Source: Tubiluchus corallicola
Lineage: Eukaryota; Priapulida; Priapulimorpha; Priapulimorphida; Tubiluchidae
NCBI GenBank assembly: GCA_030141605.1
Contig: JAQGDQ010000022.1
Location: 993,501 to 1,057,500 of the forward strand
DNA length: 64,000 bases
Direction: 5' to 3'
The position numbers were made by a program, and so were the translations under genes. The notes below the pieces were generated by a model, which saw only the letters and a program-made list of their open reading frames with translations, was not told the origin of the DNA and searched no databases. Of this stretch, positions 4,468-62,900 are shown in pieces (within the stretch, counting starts at the first letter, position 1; each line of letters starts with the position of its first letter).

Positions 4468-6531
4468 CAGCGCAGTCTCGACCACTGAAAGATCTATAAG
4501 GATCACATGTCTCTGTACTTCCCGGAGAATACCTCTCCATCCGCCACACTGGATTTAAAGCTACACAAAACAGAAGAACTGTTAAAACAAGTCTGTGTTT
4601 GTTATGGGCAGGGCATAGTAAACTGTCAGTTTCAGGATATCTCCAAAATCTATATTGAATAAAATTTGCACAAATGTATTGTTAAACTTACAGTTTAGTG
4701 GAATTTTGTATAATTAATAGATTGCAATAAAAAACTAGCCTATACAGACATTTTCTCTTACTGCAGATTTGCAGTACTAAGGCGGCAAGAAATAGTATCT
4801 AACTTTAAAGTACTTCTGAAAAGTGCTGCAAATATATATTCTCATTGAGAACCTAGTTATTTCAAGAAAGTTACCTGAAGCTTCAGCATTTCTGTCTGCA
4901 CAAAACTGCTTATATGGAGGTGGTGGCGAGTCTGAAAAAACAATAAAGAAATTTTTGACTTATCTTATCTCACCTCTCTACGTTATCAGCTAGCAGCCAC
5001 CTAAAAATCCAGAGAACAGTCTGTAGTCTCTGTACCCAGAGTTTCAGCATTTATTTTCAAAAAGTTACGAAGGCAATCTTTCTGATTGTTTGTGTCTAGG
5101 AATATTTTGAAAAGGTTAAACATGTACAGTTTGTATTACTTGCATAGACAGAAACTGACTGGTAAGGGCTCTTGGTGCCTGTTTAGTGGTAAGAGTCATT
5201 CTACAAAAAACAAAACAAAACTGGCTGTATCTTGAGAGGAAATACATTATAGAACATATTTTCATTATCTTAATGAAAATAACACCTCCCAGTGGAAAAA
5301 AACTAAAAACAAAAATTACTTCTCCTTAAAATACACGTGTATTAATGTTGGCATTTGTTTGCCAACTCACACTGCCTGTGCTTTAATTCAGCAAGGAGGC
5401 ACGCGTGCAGCGGTTAACATAATAATAAACGAGTGAATCCTTCCGATATGTAAAGCAGATGTTCTTGGACGCCTGTCTACTGTAACTCCTTCACACATTA
5501 GTCATTACCCAGGCGCCACAGACTACAATAACCTACAGCTGATCGGTGTATCGATTCCCTAACTGGAGTTTTACGTTACTCTCTTCAATTGAAAGGAAAT
5601 ACAATAGCATCGCAATTTTATAATAAATACAATTAAACTATCACAGACGTCATAGAAGTAATATTCAGCCATATATTTTAGTAATTAACAAGATGATGTA
5701 CCAAACGACAGACGTGGTCGTTTCGGAAAAACCAACCAGTCAACAATACACAGGTAGGCGCCTGAACGTAAGTTAATGTACAACGGTATGGAGGTCATGC
5801 TAAGTGAGCTAGCGCTTGCGTCTGTAAGAAAATATTTTCTTGAACACAAATGCTTAGAATAGAAAACGCATGCAACATTTAGTGTCTATTTACAGTAGGC
5901 TTCACAGGTGTGTTATGTACAAACTACAGTATACGTCTATCATTAAATGTGCACTGTATCTGATTACAGAATGTGAATACAGTAAATTTTTGTGTAGTCA
6001 AGTTGAATGATTACATTCAAACAATAAGACTTACTAAGCATTTTGTCACATTTTCATTGTTTTCCGAAAATGTGCTAGCTTATATTTTTCAATGACACTA
6101 ATTTAAAAGTACAAGTACACTGTCATAAATATTATACTAGCCTATAGCTAAAATGACATCGTACCTGGTATACACAACTGGCTCCAGTGATGGGGATTTA
6201 TACAGACTGATTTCATATTTCCAGAACTTTTACATTCTGGCAGCCTCCGAAGAGGCGCATTCTGCCATAAATCTGACCACCTCCACAGTTTGCAGAACAG
6301 CACGTGAGGCGATATGGCTCCGTTAATGGTCACCACACTTTCATTTGGGACCAACACGCAGTCTGTCTGCTGGGCCCCTCCAGATTCCACAGCTAACAGG
6401 AGAGTAGTCAACTCTAGCTCTGATAGCTGCTTGAGAAAATTATGAGCTCCAAAGGTGTCCAACTCCGTTTTTCTCTGTTTCCATAATCGCTTAATGGTGC
6501 TGGTCCTGCGAAATCCAGGCATACGAAACAT
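4468..6531 (-). CDS. Smad6/7: Inhibitory Smad (Smad6/7 type), 5' three exons, partial
   Basis: Inhibitory Smads bind activated type I TGF-beta/BMP receptors or compete with R-Smads, and recruit Smurf ubiquitin ligases. Three exons are visible on the minus strand: 6531-6165, 4931-4875 and 4560-4468. All junctions are GT-AG in phase 1 and the three join into one open frame of about 172 residues. I chose the ATG at 6531, not the in-frame one at 6558, because the protein then starts MFR..., followed by KRLWKQR, matching the family's MFR...RRLWRSR start. Residues about 33-122 form an MH1 domain with C-terminal KLWRWSDL and INPHH. Its presumed zinc ligands C58, C100, C110 and H115 are present, but the basic DNA-binding hairpin of R-Smads ([13 protein letters not shown]) is absent, as expected for an I-Smad. 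Exon 2 encodes a PPPPY motif (residues 125-129), the Smurf WW-domain docking site. The MH2 domain is missing from the window. It lies downstream of Smad2/3 in the same orientation. Confidence 0.88.
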
Positions 6532-6864
6532 GCACCCGATGCATACTAAACTGCTCATAAGCTCACATAGTTTAACTCTACCGATGATAGAAACTTCTAG
6601 CTTTTAGAATTACAATAACTGCATGTAATACACAAAATTTAACTTTAATCATAAAAACTTCCTTCGGCTTGTTCACATACAATGTTCACGACTTGAGAAA
6701 TTCTTATCACGGTCAGCTTTGGCTTAAATGTATTTTTTATTTCAAGATCAGTCTGTACACCATGTAATGCAAAACAAAACACATCATACTGCCAAGTCTT
6801 CCTGCGTTCAGCTTGCTACTGCCAGAGTCACTGACAAAATTAGTCTAGTAATCCGCCTTTTCCC

Positions 6865-13194: not shown

Positions 13195-25704
<12,510 letters not shown>

Positions 25705-25716
25705 GTGCACACAGTA

Positions 25717-26670
25717 ATGCAGAAAAAAATGGTAGGCACTGTAGCAGAAGTTGTATGTGTCGGTTCATGCAACACAGATTTAATAAGCTATGTAGACAGG
25801 TTACCAAAAATGGGTGAGACACTAGCAGGAACTAAATTTTCAGTTGGTTTTGGTGGAAAAGGTGCCAACCAAGCTGTATGTTGTGCTCGGCTTGGTGCCA
25901 AAGTAGCAATGGTTGGAAGAGTTGGCGATGATTCGTTTGGTCATGACACAATCAAAAACTTTAAAAGTAATAATGTAAATGTGGACCATCTGTACATCAC
26001 CAAGGACGTATCAACAGGAGTGGCACCAATTGCTGTAGACAAAGATGGAAATAATGCCATCATTATCATTCCTGGAGCTAATCACTGCATTACCGTGGAG
26101 GATTTGGTCAAAGCTGAATCACTAATACAGACTGCTAAAGTGCTACTTTGTCAACTGGAAGTTGAGCCGCATATATCTCTTGCCGCAATGAAGCTTGCCC
26201 GACGTCATAATGTCACCACAGTTTTTAATCCTGCTCCTGCTGTTGCAAATCTGAACCCTGAACTTTTCAAATACTGTGATATTTTTTGCCCCAATGAGAC
26301 TGAAGCTGAACTATTTACCGGATTTCCTGTGACGACTGTAGAAGAGGCAAAATCTGCAGCAGTGTCCCTGCTAAAGAAACATTGTCAGAGTGTTATAATA
26401 ACTTTGGGTGATAAAGGTGCAGTTTTTGTCGATCAAGGTGAGACTGAGGTTAAGTATGTTCCTTGCAAGTCTGTAGAAGCTGTAGATACTACAGGAGCGG
26501 GAGATGCATTTGTGGGCTCACTGGCCTTTTATTTAGCGCAGCATGAAAATTTGACACGTAGAGAGATGATACAAAGAGCATGTGACATTGCTTCCATCAG
26601 CGTCTTGAACCCTGGGACTCAAAAAAGCTATCCAGGAAGAAGTCAAATTCCATCAGAATTGTTTAGCTAG
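25717..26670 (+). CDS. RBKS: Ribokinase
   Basis: PfkB-family sugar kinase that phosphorylates D-ribose at O5 with ATP, feeding it to the pentose phosphate pathway; cytosolic. The 317-aa product (human RBKS 322) has GFGGKGANQ at residues 44-52 (PfkB signature 1 region), NETEAE at 193-198, and DTTGAGDAF at 257-265, containing the anion hole and catalytic Asp263. The whole domain sits in one exon. A strong acceptor (TTTATTTTTCAG) ends at 25704, 12 bp before this ATG, and the frame is open across it, so a 5' exon exists upstream and may add a few residues. A second Met 12 nt downstream (MVGTVAEVV) is an alternative start. It is head-to-head with Smad2/3. AATAAA at 27522-27527 is a candidate poly(A) signal. 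Confidence 0.96.
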   Translation: MQKKMVGTVAEVVCVGSCNTDLISYVDRLPKMGETLAGTKFSVGFGGKGANQAVCCARLGAKVAMVGRVGDDSFGHDTIKNFKSNNVNVDHLYITKDVSTGVAPIAVDKDGNNAIIIIPGANHCITVEDLVKAESLIQTAKVLLCQLEVEPHISLAAMKLARRHNVTTVFNPAPAVANLNPELFKYCDIFCPNETEAELFTGFPVTTVEEAKSAAVSLLKKHCQSVIITLGDKGAVFVDQGETEVKYVPCKSVEAVDTTGAGDAFVGSLAFYLAQHENLTRREMIQRACDIASISVLNPGTQKSYPGRSQIPSELFS

Positions 26671-30619: not shown

Positions 30620-32213
30620 ATGGGTTCACCGCAGAAGAAAAGAGTTGCCGTGATTGGGGCTGGAGTTTCTGGACTCGTGGCATCCCATATTCTGTCTGGC
30701 CGGCCGGATTTCGAGCATACAGTCTTTGAACGAAACTCGGATATTGGTAAGTTAGAAGGTGTAAGTTGACAAACTTTATTAGTTGACTAATCACTTGTTT
30801 CATTTTAATTTATGTTGCTCAGAATAAAACGGTCAAGGGTTGACCTGTGCATACACAGAAAGACTATAGTCATAATATCTAACGGCGTAAAGCCCAAGAA
30901 TCACACAAGCAACGAATATGTTTACACAGGTGTTCGTTATATTGTACGTGACGTTGTACTGGATTTCTTAATATCAACAGGGCGTTTCGGGACAAACTTA
31001 CTGTTTTCTGTTTATAGGTGGCATGTGGATATACACAGACGATGCAGAGCTCGACGGACAAGGACATAGAAAACACAGCGGTATCTACAAAAAGCTCATC
31101 GCAAACTTTCCAAAAGCTTTGATGGAAGCAGCAGGCCATCCTTGGCCTTCAGATGAGGACCCACTTGAGTTTCCAACCCATCAGAGGGTCCTTAAGTACA
31201 TACGAGACATTGCAGACAAGAACAATCTTCGCCAGTATGTTAGAACGAGTACTGAAGTCAAATGCATCAAGCCAATGGCATCCAAGGAAAAGTTCTTGCC
31301 ATTGCAACTAACTGTCGAAAATGTTCTCGACAGAAGTACTGAGGACATTTGCTTTGATGCTGTTCTGATTTGTGTTGGCATTTTCAACGATCCGTACACG
31401 CCATCACTGACCAACTTGCAGAATTTTCGAGGCCAAGTCCTGCATAGTTGCCAATTCCGGACAGTCGATCCGTTTGTTGGCAGGAACGTAGTCATCGTTG
31501 GGGGTGGATTTTCTGGAATAGACATAGCTATCGATGTTGCAGCGGTGGCAGTAAGTTTAACAATTTGTGTCAGTAATTGCGACACTTTCAACCTGAAGAA
31601 ACAATGCGCAGAAGGCATCCTTCCATCAAATGTACACGTTAAGTCAAGTATTGCACGCTTCCATGAAACCGGGGTCAAACTGACTGATGGAACAGTTTTA
31701 ACTGCTGATGTCGTGATTTTTTGCACTGGATATAAGTATAACTATCCATTCATACACCCGGACTGTGGAATTAGCGTGGAAGACTTCAAGGTATCACCAC
31801 TGTATAAACATACGATATGTACAAAACACCCGAACATTGTATTTATTGCAACGGCTTATATGCCTCTATGGTTTTCAGCGGCGTCTTGGCAGGTCCCACT
31901 TGCGCTGAAAGTTCTCGATGGTTCTGTACAACTACCAAGTGAAGAAGAAATGAATGCTGATACGAAAGCGGAAATGAACGAAAGGAAAAAGTGTGACTGG
32001 TATCGCGGAAGAGAGGACCATCATTTTTTGTCTAAGGAATTTTCTCCAAAGAGGTTTTTTGAAGATCTGTGTAAACTGGGAAACTTGCCACCTTACCCAA
32101 AGTTAATAGAACAGTTGGGTGTTGACATTATCGATAACACTGCCAAAAATGCAATGACATACCGTACACAGAGGTATACTTTAAGTGAGCTAATGTACAA
32201 ACACCATTTATGA
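30620..32213 (+). CDS. Flavin-containing monooxygenase (two exons)
   Basis: FAD/NADPH-dependent enzyme oxygenating soft nucleophiles (N or S) of xenobiotics or metabolites. Exons 30620-30746 and 31018-32213 join in phase 1 across a GT-AG intron, giving 440 aa; short FMOs of this kind (insect SNO-like and plant GS-OX-like) are about 430-460. The Rossmann FAD motif VIGAGVSG is at residues 11-18, followed by an acidic FERN end of the second strand and DIGGMW. The FMO-type FRGQVLHSCQF (FxGxxxHS) is at about 179-189. The NADPH motif VGGGFSG is at about 203-209 and CTGY at about 278-281. The C-terminus has no obvious membrane anchor. AATAAA at 32450-32455 gives a 3' UTR of about 250 nt. I cannot assign a specific subfamily or substrate. 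Confidence 0.95.
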
Positions 32214-36802: not shown

Positions 36803-38492
36803 ATGAAGTTGTACCAGATAGTATTCTTGATGCTCTTGGTGCTGCTATGCTGGGTAAGTCTTTACGTTTCACTTACACCATTTTGTGTTGTTACTTTTCA
36901 AGGTTACAGTGTAAGAAGACAGTGTTCACAATTTAATAACAATTTGTGCGCGGGTAATGAGTGGTTTGTTTTAAAACGCTAATTTGCACAAGGTCCTTGG
37001 CATAATTAATGGCATTTAAATTAAATGTTGAATATCTACCTATAAGACAGTTATAGTTTTACATTCATAAGTAAGGCCCGTTTTGACTAGCGTTTTTATC
37101 GCGTTGGCAAAATCGCTCGTCAAAACGTTTATCGCCATAGCGTTAAAAAAGTTCATGCAAAAAACGCCGTAACGCTGGAGCGATAAAAACGCCCATGATA
37201 ACGCAGCGTGAAAGCCGCTAGTGAAAACAATGGAGCGTTTTTGGAAACGATATTCATTTTCACTGAGTATTAAAAAACGCCGAGCTAAATGCTGCGAGAA
37301 AAACGCTATTCAAAACGGGCTTGTATGGTGAACACGAAATTGTATTAACGATCACGGCTGAAATAGAATAATTTTGATATATAGAATAATAAAGAGACGC
37401 ATTTTGATACCAATGTGACTCTTAATCCCAACCTTGAGTGCGCATCTTTTACGTTTTTTCTTTTACTTTAAACAACATTGCATTATTAGACTACCATAAA
37501 ACAATTTTCTCCTGTTTTCTTGAAGAAATAATGTAATGGTATAATCGCGTGAAGACAAAAAATTTAAATTCCGTTTTTTCAAAGGTGTGAATTTTTCTTC
37601 GTACGCCAAGCAAATACTGATAGATGTAAGTAACTAGTAAACGATAATAACACGCTGATTACAAAAGATGAATTGTATCTAAAATATTCGCCTGAGTAAA
37701 GTCAGATTTATTGTTTCTTAGCAGTTTTCAGGTTAAGGTGTTTTTTCGTTTTACCGTTGTTTAAATTTAGCGTACATAACATGTTTCCGATTGAAAGGCG
37801 GTTTATTTGGATCTGAGCGGCAATACACAATTAGTGTGAACACGGCATAACCATCAAAGCTTGTCGGTAGTCTGTTTATTTGTGTGGTGAAACTGCCAGA
37901 GCGTGTAGGGCTACACATTAAGCTATAAAATTTCGGATTAGAAATCTGTACTTCGTTCGCATTTTTTCATCGCTTTCCCGTCTTTTTTCAAACATATGTG
38001 TCAATTGTAAATCATAATAAATTTATTAATCAGGTAAGTTGGTCACTTTTGTTTATGCAAAAGTTTTAATTTGAAAGATTTAATCACCAGTTAATTCATT
38101 TTCGCTTTTATTGTATTTCCCAGTAATGTGACATCGGTTAAATGAAGCTATGGGTGTTTTGAAAATAACCAATGTCCACTTTTCCAGGTCTAAGAGTTGC
38201 TCTTTCTCTCTCATCACTTATCGAATTTTCATTGTTTGTGGTGTACACTATTTCATACAGTTAAAATAGTCAAATTGTTCCCTGATATTTTGCTTTATTG
38301 CAGGTAACACAGAGTGATGCCTACCCATACGGCGGATGGGGTTGGGGATGGGGCGGCGGACCATGGGGTTGGGGCGGAGGATTTGGCGGGGGCGGTTTTG
38401 GTTGGGGCGGAGGATTTGGAGGAGGATTTGGAGGAGGATGGGGCGGAGGATTTTATGGACCAGGATATGGATTTGGCGGTTGGTGGTGGTGA
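36803..38492 (+). CDS. Secreted Gly/Trp-rich peptide (two exons)
   Basis: Exon 1 (36803-36853) encodes MKLYQIVFLMLLVLLCW, a signal peptide core. A phase-0 GT-AG intron of 1450 bp follows, then exon 2 (38304-38492) encodes 62 residues opening VTQSDAYPYGG; cleavage is likely just after VTQSDA. The 79-aa precursor has a mature part made almost only of Gly (33 in exon 2), Trp (10) and Phe (6), with no Lys or Arg and one Asp, arranged as GWG and GGGF units and ending WWW. A 5' UTR splice acceptor (TTTTTTTCAG) lies 7 nt before the ATG. Poly(A) signals AATAAA occur at 38598-38603 and 38678-38683. It shares architecture and the VTQS-x-AY junction with the gene at 48211-49483. Function is unknown; extracellular matrix, shell or antimicrobial roles are possible but not shown. 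Confidence 0.85.
37074..37322. mobile_element. MITE-like element in the intron of the Gly/Trp peptide gene
   Basis: Imperfect inverted ends of about 27 bp (AGGCCCGTTTTGACTAGCG on the left against AAGCCCGTTTTGAATAGCG as the complement of the right). The trinucleotide GTA flanks both sides. The interior is rich in AAAACGC / GCGTTTTT motifs in both orientations. About 249 bp, no ORF. The 3-bp duplication suits a PIF/Harbinger-type element, but the family is uncertain. Confidence 0.7.
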
Positions 38493-39954
38493 ACATGTCA
38501 GCGATTGTTACAGTTTCTCACACTAGTCTACATTCGATCATCAAGAATATTTTTTCTAGCGGCTTCATGAAAATGTTCCACAGAGTTTGCAGACTGCAAT
38601 AAAACTTTTGGATTTCACATTCACCATGTCCAGTTTGCGTGAATATGTTTGCAGCATGAACCGTGCCATATAGCCAAAATAAACCTGCTGGGTTTTATGT
38701 GATTTGTTGTTATTTTCTACTACATTTTGATCATCCATCTCACTTATTTTGATCTTTCTTTATCGGAGAACATAATGTTTAGATCTTGAGAGAATTATAC
38801 AACCATCGAGCATGATAAGCCAATTTCTGCTCTTGAGCATGGCACAGAGTTTTCCAGAAAAATTTGTGTTTGTCTTCGTTATTATCATCCCGTCAAAAAG
38901 AACTTGTCTAAAGGATATTTGAAATAAAGTACTGTTACTGTTATTCATTAATATTTGTGTTTTGAATGTTTTTATTAGGCCTATTATGTGACAAGTTAAT
39001 ATTTCACGTTGTTTGTTAAATTACGCATTACTGATTACTTACGCATAGGCTCCCCAAAATGATGGCAAAATGGTGTGCTAGGTGTCCATTTAATGAATCA
39101 GTCATTCTTTTGTAGTCTATTCTTCTAAAGAATTGCTCCGCGGCACGCATTCCTGCACATATTATGGGGCGGGCATTACACAAATATATATACTATTTTA
39201 CTTCGTAGGTCATACAAAACCAGCCCCAGGTAAGGGAGGTATTTCAGCTAATAAAATAATCTTTATAGAATTTAACATCCTAGAAAACACGAACCTGCCC
39301 AGACTGACTGACTGCGGTTAACTGGCTGATTGGCTACTTGAAAGACTGATGCACAGATTGACTAACTCTAAGCTAACTGACAGATTGAACGTGAACTGGG
39401 TGACTGGTTAAAATTTTTAAAAAGAAATGAAATTTTTTTCATATCCCTTTGCGTCGTGATAAATTGCATAATGTTGTAAATAAATTACAACATTTTTTTC
39501 CAAAGAACAAGCACAAAAAGAAGGAACGCGTATTGATACACAATGCTAGATGCACAATTGACCAATTAATATTAAATTCATTACAGCACAAAAAGTGATA
39601 TTTACGTAAAAGAAATTAAAAGATCCTAGAGCATTTAAAACAATGATAATAATAAGCTTTTCATTTTATGGTCATATACGTAAGACTGAAATCTGCACGC
39701 ACACATTCACCTTGCTGAACCATTGGACGATATCTTGAGTAACGTCCTAGTACCTTTATTGTGACAGCCCTGCCTTTTTGTCATGCTACCTTAGTGCTAC
39801 CTTTTTTGTCGCACAACGTAATTTTTCAGTAACTTAGATATTATGTTGAGAACTGCGATTTTTACTAAATTTTTACGCTTTGAAATGTTTCAATAATTTA
39901 TTGTTAAAACACCACAATTTTATTAGAACTTTTGATTTCGACAGTTAAAAATCA

Positions 39955-39998
39955 TATCAAACGTTTCGACAGAGCTACTGCTGTCATCATCAGTGATA
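39955..39998 (-). ncRNA. Hammerhead ribozyme (minimal type I, Penelope-associated)
   Basis: On the minus strand all parts are present: stem I strand UAUCA, core CUGAUGA, stem II GACAG / CUGUC closed by an 8-nt loop, core GAAA, a self-complementary AAACGUUU in place of a long stem III, and the stem I partner UGAUA. Self-complementary, very short stem III is known in Penelope-element hammerheads, which are thought to act as dimers. Activity is inferred from structure only. Confidence 0.7.
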
Positions 39999-40662
39999 AA
40001 GTTTTACAAACGTACAACCAGTTTATATATGCAGAGCTACAGCATAGAACATTATGCACTAATTATGTATTTAACAGAAGCCAAATGGGTAATGAATAAG
40101 CAGACGAGTGGAAAAAATTGATACAGTAAATTTGTGCACTAATTATGTGTTTACAAAAAGCCAAATATACAGTAGCAAATACCTAAGTGTTTGAAAATTA
40201 AGTTAAAGGAATTGAACTGCTTTGTACATTAAGAGAAGGCTCATTGGGCACATAGGCAAACTTTCTTTTATTAATAAGTTCCGAGTATTTGTAGCTCTGG
40301 TCACAATGCTGTGAAATGATTAAAATCAGCTTTGTGGCCAAAGACACAAATATGGCCATTAATGATAGATTGAGGAGAATTATTTAATTACTTGCCATTT
40401 CTAGACGAACTACCCAAATGTTCATATATTCTTACTCAAATTGTCTGGATGTGTTGCCATGGTAAGCAGCAATGCAGCTCCTGATCTGAAATCTATAAAT
40501 AATATCAGACTGCAAAAATGTGGGTATTTTGTCTTTTAATGGGAAGAAAGAGCCTAAATAGGTCCAACTTACTTTCCAAAAAGGAAAGCTACATGTAGAC
40601 GAACAGAAATTCAACTCACACAGAAAGAAACTTACAACTAACGCACTAAAATGCAAGCTCAA
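39999..40662 (-). pseudogene. Penelope-like retroelement remnant, GIY-YIG region
   Basis: The minus-strand frame 40662-40432 ends with FPLKDKIPTFLQSDIIYRFQ, then CIAAYHGNTSRQFE, corresponding to the linker and start of the GIY-YIG endonuclease of Penelope-like elements (IP..L.S..VYKF....C.A.YIG.T.R). After a frameshift the next frame (down to about 40250) gives RIYEHLGSSSRNGK, SPQSIINGHI, GHKADFNHFTAL and LQILGTY, the rest of that domain, with stops. No RT part is evident upstream. The hammerhead ribozyme lies downstream in the same orientation, as expected for a Penelope terminal repeat. Confidence 0.75.
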
Positions 40663-41402
40663 AAAGCAAAATTAGACTACAGGCATGTTGAAATTAAAAT
40701 ACACCAAATAAGAATACTGCATTCTCTATATTACGCACAATTAGTCCAGTAGAATGGTGAAAAAATTGCTCTTCAAAATAATTGACAACAGAATCATAAT
40801 GCTTAAATAGTTAAGTTGTGGCCGTTATAAGCTATAGCCATCTTGTAGGTTTATTGGATGACTCTAGATTGGCTTAATATCCAAAATTAATCACCTTGAT
40901 GGTTGTACTAGTGTGCAAAATTTCATGTTAAAAAGATAAAAATGAGTAAGTTTTGGGGGCTTGCACAAGTTGCATGCTGCACATAATTTTATTAAACGTG
41001 TTATTTGATACAGTGTCCTTAATTCCATTTAAACGGTCAGTATTGTTTGACTACGTAAGTTATTATTTTCTGCTTCAACTATCTTTGACTTTCGAATAAC
41101 CCCTGTTGTCAAGGCACATTTACATATTTCGATTCGTTGGTTAAGCTTTCAAAGGATTTATTATAAACCATAAATAATACTAACGCATAATAATAATTAC
41201 ACCTTGATAAAAATTACCCCCCCCCTCTCACGCACACCAAGTCAAAAGTATCAGTTAAAGTGGTTTTAACCATGCGAGTTCCATTCGATTCTTTACAAAA
41301 TTTTATATCAGGTAGTAAAAAATGCGCAGACGTCTTGACTACGATACTACACTGATAAGAAGAAAATAACCAAATCTCTTGAAAATTAATGCTGACGTCA
41401 CA

Positions 41403-41407
<5 letters not shown>

Positions 41408-41443
<36 letters not shown>
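41408..41443. repeat. (TA)n microsatellite
   Basis: Uninterrupted AT dinucleotide run of 36 bp. Confidence 0.95.
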
Positions 41444-41446
<3 letters not shown>

Positions 41447-42354
41447 GATGCTAAACGCTTTAGGTTATTCCCTTAGATTTTTCCTAAGATACAGAAGTGT
41501 TAAAGCAATAAACCAAAAAATTAATGGCGGAAAGAATTCACATAACGCTACTGCTAAATTTCCATCAAGTGCTCTACAGTGTTCACCATTTTTAACTAAA
41601 TACATTTTCACCATCTTTAGCAGGCAATTGCTCTCAGGACTCAACAACTTTTGCCCTTAGTTCATCAGCATTAAACGGCACTGTACGGGCATCATATATT
41701 TTTATTAAAGATACCGTAATCCAGAGGATTACAGTAATACTATTTTTTCGACAACAAATCTTGATCAGTGCTTTATTTTCAGCGATGAACACCATGATGT
41801 AAGTAAGTTAATTTCTTTGTTGTTTTGCTACCGTGTGTTGAAACTGGTAGCAACGTGGCTGGTTTTCAATTGTTGATGATTAGTTAGTAATTTGGGTCGC
41901 CCAATAAATTTAGTTACTTTATCATGTTTTTGAGAGCTACGTATTTTATTAGGGCGCCACTAGATGGGTCTGAGAGCTCAAAAACTGCCATTGTATCTAC
42001 CATTTTACGGAATATCAAAAAACCTCGTCGAAAGCCGGTAACCAAATCTGCGGCAACTACTTCTGTAACAACGCAATGTAACGAGAAAAAATAAATTTCC
42101 AAGCTTTTTTTTTGAAATAACAGCTTTTCTGAAATAACAACCCATTTCACACCCAATTTTCTTTTGTACAACTATAACCCATTACAAAGATTTTCAGACT
42201 TACAGGTATCAGAAAGACCTTGGAGCATTTTCCTCCTGTATTTAGTTAAACACAGACTTCATAAAAGTTAAAATTAGCCTTTAGTTATAGAAATCAAAAT
42301 GTGTGAGTATTTTGTCTTACAATATGTGTAATTGAGCGCGCGCGAAAGCGAAAA

Positions 42355-42356
<2 letters not shown>

Positions 42357-42410
<54 letters not shown>

Positions 42411-42423
42411 AGAAAGAAAGAAA
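42357..42423. repeat. (GA)n to (GAAA)n microsatellite
   Basis: A run of GA dinucleotides passing into GAAA units. The antisense Leu/Ser-rich ORF across it is an artefact. Confidence 0.95.
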
Positions 42424-44560
42424 TAATGAAAAGAGACAGAGACAGGGGGGAGAAATTCGCACATATCTTGTCATATCCATTTTAATTTAATTCTGGTTTT
42501 TAATTGTTCGTTGACTTCTACCTCACGAGCGACAGGTGAAAACATTGTTTGAGATAGTAAGAGGCTCGAATGACTTTGACTTTCAGTGAGAGTCTAAGAA
42601 CCTATACGAGTCTGTAATCTTTCGTTACGTGAATGTACAGCTGTTAAAGAAAATCTGACTCGGTTAAATAACATTATCAATGCAGACAAAAGAGGTTATT
42701 GTTACATTCGTCGAAATAGACTCCAAATTTAAAGGAATGGCACACCATAATACGATAATAGGGCAATTTTCTTATTTCGACCACAAAAAATTTAATTGCA
42801 TCACTTTCACGAAAACAGTCAATTTATACAAAGCGTTACAAGACGTTGAAGTAGACCTATAACTTAGTTTTATAAAGCCGTTGTGCAATTCACATTGCAT
42901 TTTGAGTGAAAATGTGGAATAAACGATGAGTATTTATACTATACTACGCGTCAAGACACAAGACTGTGTTTTATGGTGATTCATTTAACGTAGTGCGGGT
43001 TCTAGAAATTTTATGAAATTGTGCATATTTTTGCGATATTTATGACCTAGATGTCGAAATAAAGAATAATATAATTTAATGTAATCTAATCTAATCTCAA
43101 ATGGTACAATCCCTAATATGACTGAATAATAATGAAGATACTATATACATAATTAAAATACTTAATAAGACTTTTACTATAAATCTTATAGAAAGCTGAA
43201 TACTAAATAAACTGTATTACGGTTTTGTAAAAGTCAGGAATTAAGATGCTGATACTTTCCCAAGTTTTATTTTTTTAACCACGACGGTTATGCAAGATAA
43301 TTTCAGACAATTTTGACAACGTATTAAGTTTAATAATCATGCATTGCGTGCGGCTTTTTGTCTTTTAAGTCAAATTACGACATTGAAATACAGCGATTAA
43401 ACCATTTATATCTACATTGGCTTAAATATTGATTTCACAGAAAGAACTTTTGTAGTAGTATTGCATATCCTATTTTGCACATTATCCGTAACATATAATG
43501 CATGATATGTTCTGAATTACAAGTTAATTAAATGTTTATAATTATTACTAAAGCCACAATTATTATATTAAATTTGGCCTCTTTACCTTAATCTTATAAA
43601 AACATCTTGAACATGGCAGCTTGCAGTTAATAAAAACTCTCGTGTTTCGTTGTTATTTTGTTAGCAACAAGTATTTTCTTATTTTCGAAAGCTTTTGACT
43701 TGTGTGATTGTTAATTGCCAGATTAAATCAAATTCAACCATACTTATTAAGCCTGTGCATATTAATTTTGTGTGGAGTGTTTAGTAGTTAACATTGACAG
43801 TAAATTTTCACTTAATGCGACCAAATTTTCCCATTGGGAATGTAGAAAAAACATCTATGCGAACAGAATCGTAAAGAACAAACAAACGAATGAGCGAACG
43901 ACGAACAAACAAGCAAAGCCGCAAAAGAACTAACACATGAACAACAAAAGAAAGAGCAAACAAAAAATGAATGAGCGAGCAAGCAAATAAATGAACGAAT
44001 CAATTAACGAGTTAGCCAGTTAGGCAACCAGGAAGTAACAACAGACAAACAACCAAAAGTAAACAGGCAAACAAACAATAAACGAAGGAGCAAACATATA
44101 AAGGAATGCGTAACGAACATTCAAGCTTTAACAATAAACAGAACGAAAAACGGTTCAAATACCCTACAAATATTCTGTTAGGCCTAATTTTAATTACATT
44201 AAAATATTGTAAAGTATGAAAACTTTGACTTGAAGTGCTGGTCGAGAGACTCGTTAGATTAAAACCTCGTCAATGCCGCCACCTTGATTTTAAAATAGCA
44301 AATCGAAAATCCGACTCTTCGTTCTAGTATATTTATATTAGATTATGGTATATTAGTCTAGGGGCCTTGAACTTTTCTTAAAAAATGTTTTCAGAGGCTA
44401 CATTAAAGTCAAAATGGCAAATCGAAACCCGATTCTATCAGTCGATGCGTAATTCCTTCTAGTATAAATTCCTTCCTGTGAAACTTCCTGACGATGATAA
44501 TTCAAAATGGCAGATCGAAAATCCAGCTCCTTCAGTCGATGCGGAGTTTGTTCTATTAAC

Positions 44561-44570
<10 letters not shown>

Positions 44571-44595
<25 letters not shown>

Positions 44596-44596
44596 C
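44571..44596. repeat. (CGA)n trinucleotide repeat
   Basis: Perfect CGA repeats flanked by imperfect CAA and CAG units. They generate poly-Asp, poly-Thr and poly-Val ORFs that are artefacts. Confidence 0.9.
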
Positions 44597-45789
44597 AGCA
44601 ACAGCAGCAAGAATTGTTGTTGTTGCGTCCTGTGTCGAAGCTTCGACCAAAATTCACATAACTCTGAGGCCCTCTGGGTTTATCGAATTCAAAGTTACCT
44701 AGAAGGCATTCTTCAAACCAGTTATAAAAAGAACACCTTAAGGTCACTGTAATGTATACGCCCCATGCGATGTTGCTTTTAAAATCTGTTGACCATCATT
44801 TTGGAAAAATGATTTCTCATCTCTGCCCAATAAGCGGTGCGTCTAAACTCTAAAACGTGTGATGTGTTTACGAGATGAGCTATTTGACTATACAGTATCT
44901 GAATGACATTGGGCCGTTAAAACTATAAGGACATAGTTGTAACTACCCAGACCTAAGGCATTTCATGTTAAATATGGCGCACTTTATGTGCCAATATGTC
45001 GTTTGACGAAGGGTCAAATTCTAGCGTATAACTATGTGTAAACCATGCTAATTGGAAAAAAGCCTATCTTGTTAACTTCTGTGTTTCGGCAGCACCTAAA
45101 GTTTTCATTTCATAAACTTAATTTTGCTTTGTAAAACAACAAGCGCACAATTATACTGTATGATTGATGAGCTATATGTCCTATTTACAACTTTAATCGA
45201 GGGACGTGGCACCGTGCGCATTTTAATAGTTGCGTTGATAGTAACCACTGTTGACGGCTATCAGCGAAAATGACATTAAGTTTTTTACCCGGCCAAGGTC
45301 AGCTGCCGGATGAAGACAGAAGCGGGTCATGATGACGGTGATAACCGTACAAAATACCGTAGACAACGAGAGTAAAGCCAGTCAGCTGCCGAAGCACCAA
45401 ACTTGCAATTTGTTAACAATCCCAGGTAAGATAGCAAGACTATTGACTTTTTCGTAGTCTGACAATTCTTATCATCATTAATAACTCCGAATGGATGTGT
45501 GCAGTTACGCACATAATTAGCAACTACTGAAAATTATAATTAATCATTCGTTAATGTTTAAAAAGACAATTCCATACTTAAGGAAATCATTCGTTGGTTC
45601 TAATTTTTCATAGCTAATCTTGATTTTTCAGTTCTTTTTATTATTAATGATGTCTCGGCTATTGCTTCACTAAATATTATTAATATTTACAATCAATTTA
45701 TTTACCACACAGATCAGCTTAGTTACAATTTATTTGAATAAATTGTGAATATAGTTTTATTTATTTTACAGATACGTCCAAAAGTCATC

Positions 45790-46940
45790 ATGAAGCTGCT
45801 GCTAACTCTGTTAGTTGGGCTACTGCTGGTGGTACGTATTGGTATACACACATTTTGTATTGTCAAAATAAATGATCAGATGCCCTTTAGGGTTATTAAA
45901 AACGTTTAAAGCATTTATTAGCTAAATGCTTATGGTGTGTGCCGGCTACAAAGTTAAGCAACAGTGGATGTGACTCGAATGGACAACTGCTAAAAATGCT
46001 TCTGGGCGGTTTCATCTGCTATACTGCCTACAGCTAGTCGACCAAACTGTCGACAAAACGTGGCTTAATACCTCTGCCGCTTCAATGTCTTATCTCGACA
46101 GATTATTTTTTATTTAGTTATATTCCGGTCCAGCCACAACTTCTGCATTACGTAAGCCTTGATTTTAAGTGCTGGATAATCTGCAGTGTATGCCACTTAG
46201 TCGTTTTCATACAGTTCCATTTTGCAAAGCTGAACTAGAATGTTTGTTAAGTTGTGAACTTTTTTAAAATGTTTTAGTTACTGAAACTGAAATTTCGATT
46301 ACATGTTATGTCATTAGACCACACAGCTCCGTCTTATAAAGATTGCTCTTAATTCTATACCGTAACATCTCACATAAAAATTCAGTTTAGTTAATCTCAA
46401 GGCATTGTGAGTCACATTTCAATTTTTAGACATTCTTGTTTTCGTCCATATTCGATTTCAGGGAATTAATAATAGCAGTAAGTTTCTACTTTGATTTTAT
46501 GTAATTATTGGCAAAGGAATCAGTTTTTAAATTGTGTTTTGTTTCAGATTACAGTGAGCTGTAGCTTTGGATACGGTGGATACGGTGGATACGGCGGATA
46601 CGGTGGATACGGTGGACGTGGTGGTTATGGTGGTTACGGTGGATACGGGGGTTATGGTGGATACGGTAGGAGATATGGTGGATACGGTGGATATGGAAGG
46701 AGATATGGTGGATATGGCGGATATGGAAGAGGATATGGCGGATACGGAAGAGGATATGGTGGATATGGAGGTTATGGTAGGAGATATGGTGGATATGGCG
46801 GATACGGAAGAGGATATGGCGGATATGGTGGATTTGGTGGATATGGGGGATATGGCGGATATGGTGGTTATGGGGGTTATGGTGGATTAGGTGGATACGG
46901 TGGATATGGTGGATATGGCGGATATGGCGGATATTATTAA
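45790..46940 (+). CDS. Secreted Gly/Tyr-rich repeat protein (two exons)
   Basis: Exon 1 (45790-45831) encodes MKLLLTLLVGLLLV, the hydrophobic core of a signal peptide. A phase-0 GT-AG intron of 716 bp follows, and exon 2 (46548-46940) encodes ITVSCSFGYGG and then about 120 residues of GGY/GYG repeats. Total 144 aa. Charged residues are about ten Arg in GRRY, GRGY and GRGG units and no acidic residue, so the mature protein is strongly basic; it has one Cys (VSCS) near the likely cleavage site. The ATG is 18 nt after a splice acceptor (ATTTTACAG), so there is a 5' UTR intron. Repeats of this type resemble molluscan shematrin-like shell proteins and nematode Gly/Tyr-rich antimicrobial peptides, but low complexity prevents a homology claim. 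Confidence 0.88.
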
Positions 46941-48210
46941 GAAGCATTATTGTAAACTGTGTTACAGGAAAGTACTTTCGATGAGGGTATGCATTGCGAG
47001 GCTTTCACGTAGCAATGTAACAGTATAAGTTTTGTCTGTCGTTTGCAGAGGGCGCCTCAATTCATCTGTCGTAGCATTTTTAAATATATTTAGTTACTGA
47101 GCTGCTAAATTACGTTCTAGTCCAGAGTGCCAGCCTAAAACAATTTGTGTGGAATTTTGAAAATCGAAAGCAACAGAACACACCTGTATTAATTACATTA
47201 GCTGATAAATGCTTAGAAAGAATGGATGAATATTTATTTGGTAAAGCGGCTAGTTATCAGCAAAAGAAAATGGAAGATAAAAAAGGGTCAATTATGTTCT
47301 AGCTGATGGCTATAAAGTGTTTTTTGATTGACTGTGGAAGGCAAACTAAACTATTAGTTTACTTAAAATTTGTACGATTTAATTTTTAATATCTGTTATT
47401 TAAATCAGTGTGCGTGTAAAAGTTGTCATAATGCAGTATTGTCCACGTTGTTTCGGATATTTGCGTCATATGTCTTTCTCGTAAGCTGTTTCCTAAGCAT
47501 ATTCATTTTTTGGCACTATATGACCTTTTAAAATGTTTTATGGTGATGTGACAGTAGATTAATAGTTAGTACTGAAGGTTTGTCGTTTTAAGTGTCTTTC
47601 AAATTTCATTACACTGTACACTGTTCACTCTCGAGTAAAGACTGCTTGAAACAAAAAAAACGTGTTTACATTTATTTCAAAATTTATTTTTAAAGATTTT
47701 TGTTGTGCAAGACAAAAATGAACCAGTGCTAGACACACGGTCATTATACCGACAGTCCATTAGGTTTTGTTTAGAAGAACCTCGGAGTGTGTTTGCTTGA
47801 ACGTCAACAAATAAGCACGTATACATGTGTATAAAACAATGTAAACAGCGTTAAAAATTTGGAAAAATAGTTACTATGTATACAATTATTCAAGGCAAAA
47901 CAAAAACACTTAACGAAAAAACGTCTTTTTACGTCACATTGTATACATCAGCTAACAACATACTAACAACTTAACAAGACTAAACTAGGCCAAAATGGCT
48001 TCTATTAATCGCACTGCGGTAAAAAAAGCAGAGGACAATGTGCCTGTTTGGGCTCGCTGTTTCTTGGAAATTTTTCCTTTTTCCCACAAAATCTGGACTG
48101 GGCTTAATATGAACACACCATCACACTATATACATAATCGAGCGGATAATGTGAAGATCACAGTCACTGTCGAAAAACATGAAGATAAATTTTCAATGTT
48201 GATCGACGGG
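46941..48210. other. Convergent 3' UTR region of the two Gly/Tyr-rich genes
   Basis: Holds the 3' ends of the plus gene ending at 46940 and the minus gene ending at 48211. A minus-strand AATAAA (47671-47676) is a candidate signal for the latter; AGTAAA at about 47635 could serve the former. A plus ORF at 47995-48234 overlaps the end of the minus gene and shows no domain. Confidence 0.45.
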
Positions 48211-49483
48211 TTAATAATAGCTGTAGATCCCTGAATGCAAATCTACACCAGTGTGACCATCTCCATATCCAGATGTATGTTCGTCATGTTTATGACCGTG
48301 ACCATAACCATGATGCTTAACATATGGACCGTAACCGTAGTGACCGTAATCGTAATTAGGATAGCCGCCATAGACATACCCATAACCGTCATGACCAACA
48401 TGATTTTTTAAACCAGTTTCATGGTGACCAACGCCCAGGCCACTGTAACCGCGATTGCCTTGCTGACCGTTATTGTTGCGCCCCGCCGCGTAACCATAGC
48501 CGTAGTCGTCCAGTCCATAAAGTGCGAATATATCTTGACCACTGAGACCATAAGCACCATTAAATGGTCCACCAGCTCCAAAGACGAGTCCACCAAAATG
48601 CCATCCCGGGGCGGCTCGGTATGCAAGGGACTGTGTTACCTGAAAAACATTAAAGGTATGTAAAAGACACCGAGTCAGGACCTGGTGGCTAATTTGTATA
48701 TGCAGACGATTTCAGTGCTTTTGCTTTTTTCGCAGGAATAGCAGTTTCTTTGATTAGACATTACAGCCTTTTGGCTTTTTTTGGTTTACTAATAATGTTA
48801 ATAGATGGCGACAAGTGTCCAAGCATCGCAGAATAAAGACACTCATAATCACGAAGAAAGACATTTATTCTGTGGCAACAGCATGTTGTACAAAGCTTTC
48901 AAGAAAAAGAGATGAATTTTAGAGTTAAATGTTCTCTAAATTGCTCCTTTAAATGAATCTTAGGATAAATTCTACAGTTTTTGTTTTTATAATATAGAAG
49001 CAATCAAGAAGAAGAAAACGATCTCCTTTTTATATTTTTAATGTAAGATCACAGATTTAAATTCCGTGCGCGCATGAAAACCTCTCTTGTCGAAAAAGAT
49101 CAACGCTTGATTTCTCCTGATTTTGTTTCTGTGCTTGCTTCTGTGGCACATTGGAAAAAACAGCACATTTTTCAGTTACGCTTAAATGCTGCAGATTGAT
49201 CCCTGAAGTAACAATTTTGCAAATGCTCTCTACCTCTACTTTCTGGTAGGAAGGTTAATTTTTTCACGAACGAAAATTTGGCGTGAATGTTAACAAAATT
49301 TTGGTCGCACACTACCTGCAACTAATGTTCAATCAACCCTCGTAACACTTAAGAACATTACGCCAGCAACGTAAGTTTTAATACTAATTTTTTAAATTTC
49401 GTATTCATCTTTATCTATTTTAATCCAAGTATACTCACGTGATAGCTCAGCAAGAACAAAAACGTTATGCTCCATCTTGCCAT
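48211..49483 (-). CDS. Secreted Gly/Tyr/His-rich protein (two exons, minus strand)
   Basis: Assembled from splice sites. Exon 1 (49483-49439) encodes MARWSITFLFLLSYH. A donor (GTGAGT) and acceptor (TTTTTCAG) bound a phase-0 intron, and exon 2 (48639-48211) encodes 142 residues beginning VTQSLAYRAAPG. Total 157 aa. The hydrophobic start plus VTQSLA gives a plausible signal peptide cleaved before YRAAPG. The first third is GGLVFGAGG-like; the rest has GYG, HGYGHGHKH and YGHYGYG units with many His, and the protein ends SGIYSYY. The VTQS-x-AY junction and exon layout match the gene at 36803-38492, so the two are probably paralogues. His clusters suggest metal binding, which is speculative. A splice acceptor at about 49526 suggests a 5' UTR intron. 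Confidence 0.82.
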
Positions 49484-59900: not shown

Positions 59901-62900
59901 AGATTGTGCGCTTGTTCCAACTTTAACCAGTAACTTTGAAACTAGCTAATCAAATTTATAAAGACATTCGTTAACCTGCGTTACTGTACCCATGATATTT
60001 TAGATTGTATATTTCGTCGCCCTGTTTCCTTATGTGATGCTGACAACTCTCTTGATCAGAGGGCTAACACTTGACGGCGCTGTAGATGGCATCATTTACT
60101 ACTTGGAGCCACAATGGGAGCCACTAGCAGACATTGTGGTAAGAAAATAAATTATTTAACTCTTTTTACATGCTCGTATATAGTTTTGTTCCTAGCGAAC
60201 CAGTTGCATTACAATCATCATCGTTATCATCCTCATTATAGTCGTCATCATCATCACCACACAATCTTTATTATTATCTGTCATCATCATAATCGTCAAC
60301 ATCGTTATCAGCTGCTCAGCTTTGCCTCGGCCATTAACGACGCCATCGGGCTGAAAATGAAGGACCTCGGGCCAAAAATGCTCGCAATGCCCAGAAAACT
60401 AGTATTATTGTTATAGAGCCGGGGTGGACGGGGGAGGCTCGTCGTAGTGGCGTAGCCACTTCGCAATACCATACACCCAAAATGTTGAGTACAAACTTTG
60501 TACTAATTAGTTTAGTTTTTCTAGTGTAATACGTAATCTTTATTAAAAATACTTTTTACAGAAAAGTATAAAATGTGAAACCAGGATAAAACGTATCTAC
60601 GGTGCTTTTTACAGACAAAAATGACAAGTTAAAAGATTACGGATAAAAGCCCAGAGAGCCAAGCCTATTTCCATATTCCCTTCGAAAGATAAATAATTGT
60701 TAAGATATACATTTTTTAAACATTTTTTAAAAAGTTTACTACTCTGAGCAAAATGTAGGCGCTCCTTACTCCATAGCTTGTCTGGCATAACTAGGCTCAT
60801 ACACGCAGTTTGTTTCCTGCATTAAATGAGGCAGGATTATCCACTATGCACCAGATGAGAACTGAAATTAATGTGTTTTTGTTTTCAGTGATTTGATCTT
60901 AATTTTACCAGGTGTGGCGGGACGCAGCAGTACAGATATTCTATTCTCTAAGCTGTTGCACCGGCGGACTCATTGCCATGTCCAGTTTCAATAAATTTCA
61001 TCATAATACTCACAGGTAAAATACACAATGTGCAGAGTGTGACAAGCGTGCTTCAAAACGCATGATGTTATTTTAGTTTAAGTAATCCGTTTATGTTAAC
61101 TAAGCAAATAAATAGAGGTCAAATAATAATTTGTGAAAGATTTGTATATAAGGTAACACATAAAACTTATTTTAGGAACTAAGAAATTGAAGTTATTTTT
61201 ATAGGTTGTACACAAATCAAAAATCAATAATGATAAATTTTACATTTTTTTATCAAGATTTTGCTGAAGCTGACATTGTCAAAACAACCATCGAATATTT
61301 GAAAAAATCTTCAAAAGGAATGTACAACTTTTTGGACTGAGCAATTCTTATATAACTCTGTATAGGCTTAACTGAAGAATAGTTAGTTGGCCTCTTGTTT
61401 GAGAGTTATGGAGACTTTTATCATACATTGATTGTTTTACCAGCCATGAAATTTAGTTTGAATTAGAGTGGAAACGCTAATGTGGTTGGATACGGCACAC
61501 GTCAAGTAAAATGTTATATATCTCCGGTACTTCTGGTATGACTTCCGCTTTATAAAAGCTCCCACCAGTGTTGCGTAAGCTACGAAATCTTGCCATTTAC
61601 TCATTATGCGACTAACAACGAGTATTCTAAATTTTTAGGAAAAAACAATGACAATAACATGACCAAGAGCTAGGGATCCCCCATCTTTTCATGTCGGTTC
61701 AAAAAATATAACATTGATTCGCTACTTCCGTGGCTAATTTATACAACTTGTAGTAATACCTTCATGGCTCTGAAAATATTTAACATAAACTTTTATAATA
61801 CCTTATAATGCACAAATTACTAATTTTATTTACTGTTTGTTTTTTTTTTGACTGAAATTTTCAAATTGTACATTTAATTTCAATTGCCTACAGTTTTTTT
61901 ACTTTTGACGGACCCTATAATTGCAGTGAATCTGTTTGGGTGATAGAAACAAGGGTAATTAATGCATAAATTTTTACAAAATAATTATTTGTTCAGGAGT
62001 CAATGTTAAGCTGACCATGAACCGCTACGATGATCAAAAAATGTGATCGAACCCGATTTTCTAGTACTACACATTAAGAAAGTTCGTTTATTAAACAACT
62101 AAGTTTCTTAATTCTTTGCTATTTTTTACTATTAGAAAAGAACACTTACCTCAGCCATATACCGCTTCATTGTGCACGTATAGTTTAATTATTATCAATT
62201 GTAAGCCAAAACATTTGTGTAAATACAGGGATGCAATATTGATACCGATTATTAACTGTGCAACCAGCATCTACGCAGGCATGGCTGTTTTTTCGACACT
62301 CGGTTTCATGGCGCTTGAAAAAAATACAACAGTGGCAGAAGTAGCCGAACAAGGTTTGTACAAACACATAAAATGACGTACTATTCATAGAATCAACTAG
62401 CATGGCTGAATAGACGAACTTATAGTGGACTAATTGTTTGTGAAAATATTTTAATATGGTATTTGTAAATATGTTCATTATATTGTATATAGTTTTTAGT
62501 TTAGCACTTTAGTTTTTTTAGTATGCACTGGACGCATTTGTCTTGAACAGTGTTGTAATGAGGGAACCGTTTTTATGACAAATAAAGAATTAATATATAT
62601 AATATATATATATATATATAAGTAACCGAGCAAAATTTGTATAGGCCGCAAAGGCAAGGTAAAAAAGGTGATATTTGCATTAATTTTGTGTTGTGCATTG
62701 TCATCCTCACGCAAAATTTCAAAATGAAAATTGCACATTTGCTTGATCGTGCAATACGTACGACTGTACCTACTGAATTATGGAATAATTTATGGAGACT
62801 AAGAAAAAATTGACTTCAGGAGCACTCGGCTGTCTTACGTCTAAGAATCTCCAGGGCAAAATTGTAAAAATTTGCATGAACAAAATTAGGAACTAGTAAA

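Follow-up and report, generated by a model that had tools for sequence, protein, structure and literature searches.

Within a stretch of 64,000 nucleotides (nt) of the genome of the priapulid Tubiluchus corallicola (C2265:993501-1057500, on contig JAQGDQ010000022.1; 35% G+C, gap-free; hereafter the window) lie three genes, A, B and C, each of which is predicted to encode a secreted, Gly-rich protein whose signal peptide is split by a phase-0 intron. In the reading that we favour, and to which we give a probability of roughly 0.6, these genes would belong to a set, dispersed in the genome but in part clustered, that encodes secreted structural proteins of low complexity and Gly/aromatic composition; five further candidates for it (D to H) were found elsewhere in the genome.

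Architecture of genes A, B and C

The three genes have the same layout: a short first coding exon holds the n- and h-region of the signal peptide, a phase-0 intron follows, and a single second exon encodes the c-region together with all of the mature protein (Table 1). The coordinates of the two-exon models proposed in the initial annotation hold, their splice sites are present, and the exons join in frame at phase 0 in all three. The joined products, of 79 (A), 144 (B) and 157 (C) amino acids, have a hydrophobic N-terminus followed by a Gly-rich part, and their N-terminal hydrophobicity predicts that they are secreted. Exon 2 opens with VTQS in A and C and with ITVS in B, and A and C have VTQS-x-AY in common. 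The mature parts had been described as sharply different (Gly/Trp, Gly/Tyr/Arg and Gly/Tyr/His), and the residue counts of exon 2 bear this out: 33 Gly and 10 Trp in the 62 codons of A; 74 Gly, 37 Tyr and 10 Arg in the 130 codons of B; and 36 Gly, 21 Tyr and 14 His in the 142 codons of C.

A scan for polyadenylation-type hexamers (A[AT]TAAA) gave an AATAAA 105 nt past the stop of gene A and hexamers 522 and 534 nt past that of gene C, and none within 1,200 nt past the stop of gene B. No Pfam family was matched by A, B or C at E<=1, and NCBIfam, searched with C and with the domain of D and E described below, gave nothing for C. The minus-strand gene, C, had been thought invisible to a search by open reading frame length; a plain search of this kind lists a 166-residue frame containing its exon 2, and gene A is the one absent from the list of frames of at least 80 residues. 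The gene cluster that A, B and C form is real and well modelled.

Probable common origin of A and C

A common origin of A and C is well supported by the sequence at their intron. The genome (343.5 Mb, 2344 contigs) has two places where a splice acceptor is followed by VTQ-[S-like]-x-AY, one in A and one in C, 10.3 kb apart, and none with the reversed control pattern. The pattern was built from A and C themselves, with 0.66 places expected from base composition; the meaningful fact of the search is that there is no third place and that the two are linked at this distance. With the first seven residues of exon 2 aligned on the intron for A to H (28 pairs), A and C are alike at 6/7, F and G at 5/7, and the other 26 pairs at 3/7 or fewer. 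The likeness of A and C spans the intron position, continues for seven codons into exon 2 and is then lost. The serine codons are AGT in A and TCC in C, which speaks against a recent copy.

A wider set of split genes

The initial annotation had reported three genes; the set is larger, since D to H have the same split architecture. Gene D was found by reading parts of the flanks of the window. A protein search with B led to two further Gly-Tyr exons, and one of these gave 30 matches at E<=10, of which 14 loci were read and 16 were not; among the 14, the only loci with a Gly-rich open frame that passed our filter were those of F and B themselves, of E (L013) and of G (L014). In all eight genes, A to H, the signal peptide is split, as read from sequence alone, by a phase-0 intron after 9-17 codons, and the mature part lies in one exon. 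F and G, whose first exons are 5.9 kb apart, are a second linked pair with LLVLAS/[IV]LA[VM]TYS in common (the slash marks the intron), and the remaining exon-1 candidates for F in the piece read all lie inside the repeat exon of G. A rough (-3,-1) script places the cleavage site 6-7 codons past the intron in five of the eight (A, C, D, G and H). Pfam gave nothing for exon 2 of F and H. As C2265:920001-955500 and most of the remainder of that contig were left unread, the extent of the set is a lower bound.

A contrast is provided by the genes related to D and E, which carry a common domain of about 120 residues (the D/E domain). The genome has it in at least 36 places, all 37 first-look candidates having been scored, and it is joined to varied Gly-rich repeats. 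Twelve of the 36 loci were examined, six of them (L059-L064) hand-picked from lower-ranked rows. In eight (L055, L056 and L059-L064), the signal peptide is unsplit and lies with the Gly-rich body in one exon; their domains are 33-38% identical to that of D, and in each the ATG is preceded, at a distance of 1-11 nt, by an AG acceptor. Two of the twelve are split (D and E), and two were counted as neither: L053, for which the acceptor of a 12-codon exon-1 candidate (in L057) would be in phase 2, and L054, which has a gap upstream. Because eight D/E-domain genes are unsplit, Gly-rich secreted genes in this genome do not generally have the phase-0 split, a statement that concerns the D/E-domain family and not all secreted genes. 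Nor is a run of phase-0 introns the default among animals, since their signal-peptide introns are usually in phase 1 and near the cleavage site (PMC1626468); in Drosophila there is a phase-0 peak at position 5, chiefly of cuticle proteins (PMC1626468).

Intron phase and position, set against the eight unsplit genes among the twelve D/E-domain loci, moderately support a common origin of A to H; the D/E-domain family is linked to D and E and not directly to A, B and C. The common origin put forward initially for A, B and C stands in part: for A and C, whose junction pattern is found genome-wide only there, it is well supported, and for B, as for the set as a whole, moderately so.

Table 1. Features of genes A to H. 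Gene A to C positions are those of the window; a slash marks the position of the intron.
Feature	Location	Strand	Details
Gene A, coding exon 1	36803..36853	+	MKLYQIVFLMLLVLLCW; 17 codons; phase-0 donor tgg/GTAAGT
Gene A, intron within signal peptide	36854..38303	+	1450 nt
Gene A, exon 2	38304..38492	+	VTQSDAYPYGGWGWG...GGWWW stop; Gly/Trp/Phe; 33-bp tandem units, 2.3 copies
Gene B, coding exon 1	45790..45831	+	MKLLLTLLVGLLLV; 14 codons; phase-0 donor gtg/GTACGT
Gene B, intron within signal peptide	45832..46547	+	716 nt
Gene B, exon 2	46548..46940	+	ITVSCSFGYGGYGG...GGYY stop; Gly/Tyr/Arg; 9-bp tandem units
Gene C, coding exon 1	49439..49483	-	MARWSITFLFLLSYH; 15 codons; phase-0 donor cac/GTGAGT
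Gene C, intron within signal peptide	48640..49438	-	799 nt
Gene C, exon 2	48211..48639	-	VTQSLAYRAAPGW...GIYSYY stop; Gly/Tyr/His
Gene D	C2265:1075576, outside window		MYLAVLLVALFS/ARQTLAS; phase 0
Gene E	C2265 near 912.5 kb, outside window		MKILILLAC/VVGTFAG; phase 0; 9-codon exon 1
Gene F	contig C1732		MESKFVFMLLVLAS/ILAVTYS; phase 0
Gene G	contig C1732		MSRKLGPVLLVLAS/VLAMTYS; phase 0
Gene H	contig C593		MKLLLVLGLIFT/LSRVDSS; phase 0
D/E domain in D	C2265:1076922-1077338		L051
D/E domain in E	C2265:911163-911576		L052

Searches with the D/E domain itself gave no convincing relative: Pfam, over 12 members, yielded two one-member hits (E 0.011 and 0.041) that we judged to be chance, NCBIfam no match, and two PDB profile searches one chance-level match (E 0.61) and none, respectively. 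AlphaFold2 returned no confident model, with a mean predicted local distance difference test score of 48. Matches to the domain with identical scores across C2196/C2262/C2263 and across C1545/C2286 suggest recent duplicates or uncollapsed haplotypes.

A second control for signal-peptide introns, based on Kunitz-domain genes, was used neither way. There are 109 Kunitz-domain exon matches on C1518, C2314, C1961 and C1883, many of them clustered, and several of those on C1518 form pairs, one match per strand with equal scores, as though a section of that contig were an inverted duplicate. Loci were taken for 16 of the 109, and all 16 contain a Kunitz frame. Upstream exon-1 candidates are present in five, in phase 2 (L044 and L049), in phases 0 and 1 (L046 and L047, which are near-identical) and in phase 0 (L048), and L039 has one possible single-exon start; no candidate could be tied to a Kunitz exon, and most of these exons look internal.

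How far exon 1 and its acceptors exceed chance

When the 2.5 kb ahead of exon 2 were scanned for an ATG followed by 9-25 hydrophobic codons and a phase-0 donor of at least 4 bits, the proposed exon 1 was the sole candidate in each of A, B and C. A stricter scan of both strands of the window gave five phase-0 hits, which are A, B, C, 63169 and 13619, together with two hits each in phases 1 and 2; the hit at 63169 is, by eye, an exon of a symporter gene. When an acceptor within 30 nt was demanded as well, three phase-0 hits were left in the window (A, B and 63169) and C was lost. The same scan gave 0-3 phase-0 hits in each of 12 Markov windows (14 in total, mean 1.2) and, in 139,460 nt of control loci, one hit in phase 0, six in phase 1 and five in phase 2. 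Exon 1 alone is not beyond chance, and the weight of the case is in the fact that it joins in frame to a Gly-rich exon 2 and that relatives repeat this arrangement.

Two further marks of the family proposed earlier lose their force. One was an intron in the 5' untranslated region (UTR) of all three genes: an acceptor lies 7 nt (A) and 18 nt (B) before the ATG, the nearest pyrimidine-tract acceptors of C lie 96 and 105 nt before it, and no upstream 5'-UTR exon was identified for A, B or C. These acceptors could be trans-splice acceptors rather than the ends of a 5'-UTR intron, and an acceptor directly before the ATG is not special to A, B and C, since it is also found in the eight unsplit D/E-domain genes. 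The other mark was the start of the second exon with V/I-T-x-S, which is the normal look of a signal-peptide c-region and does not by itself identify a family.

Change within exon 2

The initial annotation had pictured a young family in which a fixed secretory exon is paired with changing repeat exons. The regions of A, B, C, D, F, G and H (E was excluded, and F and G were taken as separate pieces) were compared by blastn at E<=0.01, and the hits are confined to exon-2 repeats, apart from that of the G piece to its own overlap; no similarity was detected in introns or UTRs, and A and C match none of the compared regions. Copies in B three codons apart differ at 36, 25 and 62 of 127 first, second and third codon positions, and those in A, at the best lag, at 21, 21 and 32 of 51. 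The third-position excess suggests that in B the amino-acid repeat is kept by selection while third positions drift. The blastn outcome fits old duplications with in-place turnover of repeats, and a young age finds no support in it or in the B copies, which differ most at third positions.

Nor is the secretory exon fixed, as exon 1 varies both in length (9-17 codons) and in sequence. This bears on exon shuffling, the mechanism proposed earlier, by which a single signal exon would have been copied in front of unrelated repeat exons. All introns being in phase 0, the exons are interchangeable in principle, and for peptides of Nasonia it has been suggested that exons were shuffled by way of a conserved phase-0 intron (PMC2853521). 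Exon 1, however, differs in length or sequence in every gene, blastn found no common intron DNA, and the agreement of A and C crosses the intron, ending only within exon 2, so that change took place inside exon 2, probably by repeat turnover and not by exon swapping. We therefore reject shuffling, which we hold to be very improbable, along with a young origin.

One possible trace of kinship persists at the C-terminus, where an aromatic doublet is present in A (WWW), B (YY), C (YY), D (YY), F (FYG) and G (FFG) and missing from E, H, L053 and L054; these six of ten proteins compare with 0.85 expected on shuffling of residues (P about 2e-5). The doublet was noticed post hoc and is only suggestive.

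Common descent weighed against convergence

Common descent of the set has to be weighed against convergence, by which A to H would not be one family, and Gly-X repeats, which arise easily, short hydrophobic signals and phase-0 introns would have been gained or kept independently. Several observations weigh against our reading, and some of them are what convergence would lead one to expect. Exon 1 does not exceed chance in the window, DNA similarity was detected by blastn only in the exon-2 repeats, and insect cuticle genes are known to include some whose signal peptide is interrupted by a phase-0 intron (PMC1626468, PMC2259329). Phase-0 exon-1 candidates were also seen upstream of Kunitz exons, at 3 of the 16 loci, two of which are near-identical copies. 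The likeness among B, D, F, G and H may reflect convergent Gly-Tyr repeats. A and C have no further relative genome-wide by protein search (one search scored 150 of 560 candidates), A, B and C lack the D/E domain, for which the domain search lists just D and E on C2265, and C has no internal repeat and no third-position excess (64, 74 and 65 of 107). Some models are also less secure than others: E has a weak exon 1, with 9 codons and a donor of 4.0 bits, that was detected only after relaxation of the scan, exon 1 of G is the nearest of three candidates in 6.8 kb and resembles that of F, and the (-3,-1) script places cleavage elsewhere in B, E and F. Convergence, in turn, has to account for an A/C junction that is found at no third place in the genome, for eight phase-0 split genes where the D/E-domain family has eight unsplit ones, and for the physical linkage of A, B, C, D and E and of F and G, and we consider it unlikely.

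Proposed origin and function

In the model of common descent that we favour, the phase-0 intron would already have been present in the common ancestor of the set. Duplication, with one copy inverted, would have been followed by rewriting of exon 2 in place through expansion, loss and drift of Gly-X repeats, so that the secretion chassis alone would remain comparable among members. An epithelium would secrete the proteins, and Gly-loop and aromatic contacts would hold them together in an extracellular assembly, with Tyr (A to C) and His (C) as possible sites of oxidative cross-linking or metal binding; the product may form or fill a material of the cuticle, tube, shell-matrix or adhesive kind. 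As to function, secreted structural proteins are the most likely reading, given their composition, the size of the set and the parallels published for Hydractinia, insect cuticle and semen coagulum genes.

The main rival on function, mostly for B, is that the genes encode Gly/Tyr-rich defence peptides, that is, epithelial antimicrobial precursors like those of the nlp-29 cluster and the caenacins of Caenorhabditis elegans. Exon 2 of B carries three Gly-Arg-Arg sites, which look like signals for amidation and dibasic cleavage and could yield amidated peptides, and its Arg-containing repeat resembles the Gly/Tyr-rich NLP/CNC peptides. The NLP/CNC genes likewise occur in small clusters that diversify under selection (PMC2453101). 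Set against this, the mature part of A has no basic residue, C is His-rich and without dibasic sites, and the exon-2 products of D and E, at 512 and 448 residues, are closer to structural proteins; a defensive role is, in our view, quite improbable.

Genomic neighbourhood

The intron of gene A contains a 245-bp element (37076-37320) with 27-nt, 93% complementary inverted termini, which resembles a small non-autonomous DNA transposon. Elsewhere in the window, Smad-type exons lie on the minus strand between 6148 and 24287, with MH1 at 6148-6603, 19889-20155 and 24021-24287 and MH2 at 13195-13668 and 16378-16836; we take the first MH1, by eye, to be Smad6/7-like and the other two to be Smad2/3-like. 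The plus strand carries a ribokinase-like PfkB gene in a single open frame (25660-26670), an FMO-like enzyme (30972-32213, a 413-residue open frame) and an exon of a sodium:neurotransmitter symporter (62095-62376). These neighbours mark the genome as that of an animal, Smads being animal genes. Searches of the genome for COX1 and for the molluscan haemocyanin domain gave no match, the second being uninformative, as the domain is missing from the control genomes as well.

Significance and comparison with known systems

Many animal materials are built by Gly-rich secreted proteins with a fast turnover, and the Gly-repeat genes of Hydractinia are hard to relate by BLAST or alignment (PMC11876637). 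Intron phase, intron position relative to the cleavage site and linkage together offer a way of testing kinship independently of the repeats; it works for A and C, where the mature parts show no similarity, and the unsplit D/E-domain genes show that it can discriminate. New here is that the set is larger, that the A/C junction is confined to this pair genome-wide, that a contrast family has unsplit members, and that similarity breaks off inside exon 2. A bolder proposal, possible though on balance doubtful, is that a single ancestral phase-0 intron, set a short and constant way ahead of the cleavage site, serves as a durable chassis that outlives all sequence similarity of the mature proteins and unites the orphans with the 36-match domain family in one superfamily of lineage-specific extracellular material. 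If true, orphan low-complexity secreted proteins as different as the Gly/Trp, Gly/Tyr/Arg, Gly/Tyr/His and D/E-domain types could join a single superfamily.

The shematrins and KRMPs of pearl oysters are Gly-rich, Tyr-containing proteins with a signal peptide and repeats, and shematrins have a basic C-terminal tail. A shematrin-type Gly-rich body behind a signal peptide, the latter judged by hydrophobicity, is found in A, B and C, whereas the basic tail is not, A ending in GGWWW, B in GGYY and C in YSYY. Insect CPR genes also have a short first coding exon, a signal-peptide intron and clustered secreted structural products, with a strong phase-0 bias in the RR-2 class, and their first coding exons measure 3-36 nt in contrast to 27-51 nt here (PMC2259329, PMC1626468); the intron lies later here than in the CPR genes. 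The R&R Consensus domain (pfam00379) of the CPR proteins is absent from A, B and C, none of which matched a Pfam family at the threshold given above. The nlp-29 cluster and caenacins of C. elegans likewise form small clusters with Gly/Tyr-rich secreted products, and the nlp-29 cluster is reported to raise pathogen resistance in vivo, whereas here only B has a comparable basic Gly-Tyr repeat (PMC2453101). In Hydractinia, the clusters of Shematrin-like and Prisilkin-like genes resemble A, B and C in being clustered Gly-repeat genes, mostly with a signal peptide before the repeats; the signal-peptide intron is a feature of A to H, which are known from their sequence only (PMC11876637). Finally, the mammalian semenogelin/WFDC (REST) locus also consists of linked genes in which a signal-peptide exon precedes a fast-changing exon for the secreted protein; exons 1 and 3 of the REST genes keep their sequence and size, whereas exon 1 of the genes described here varies in both (PMC3209443).

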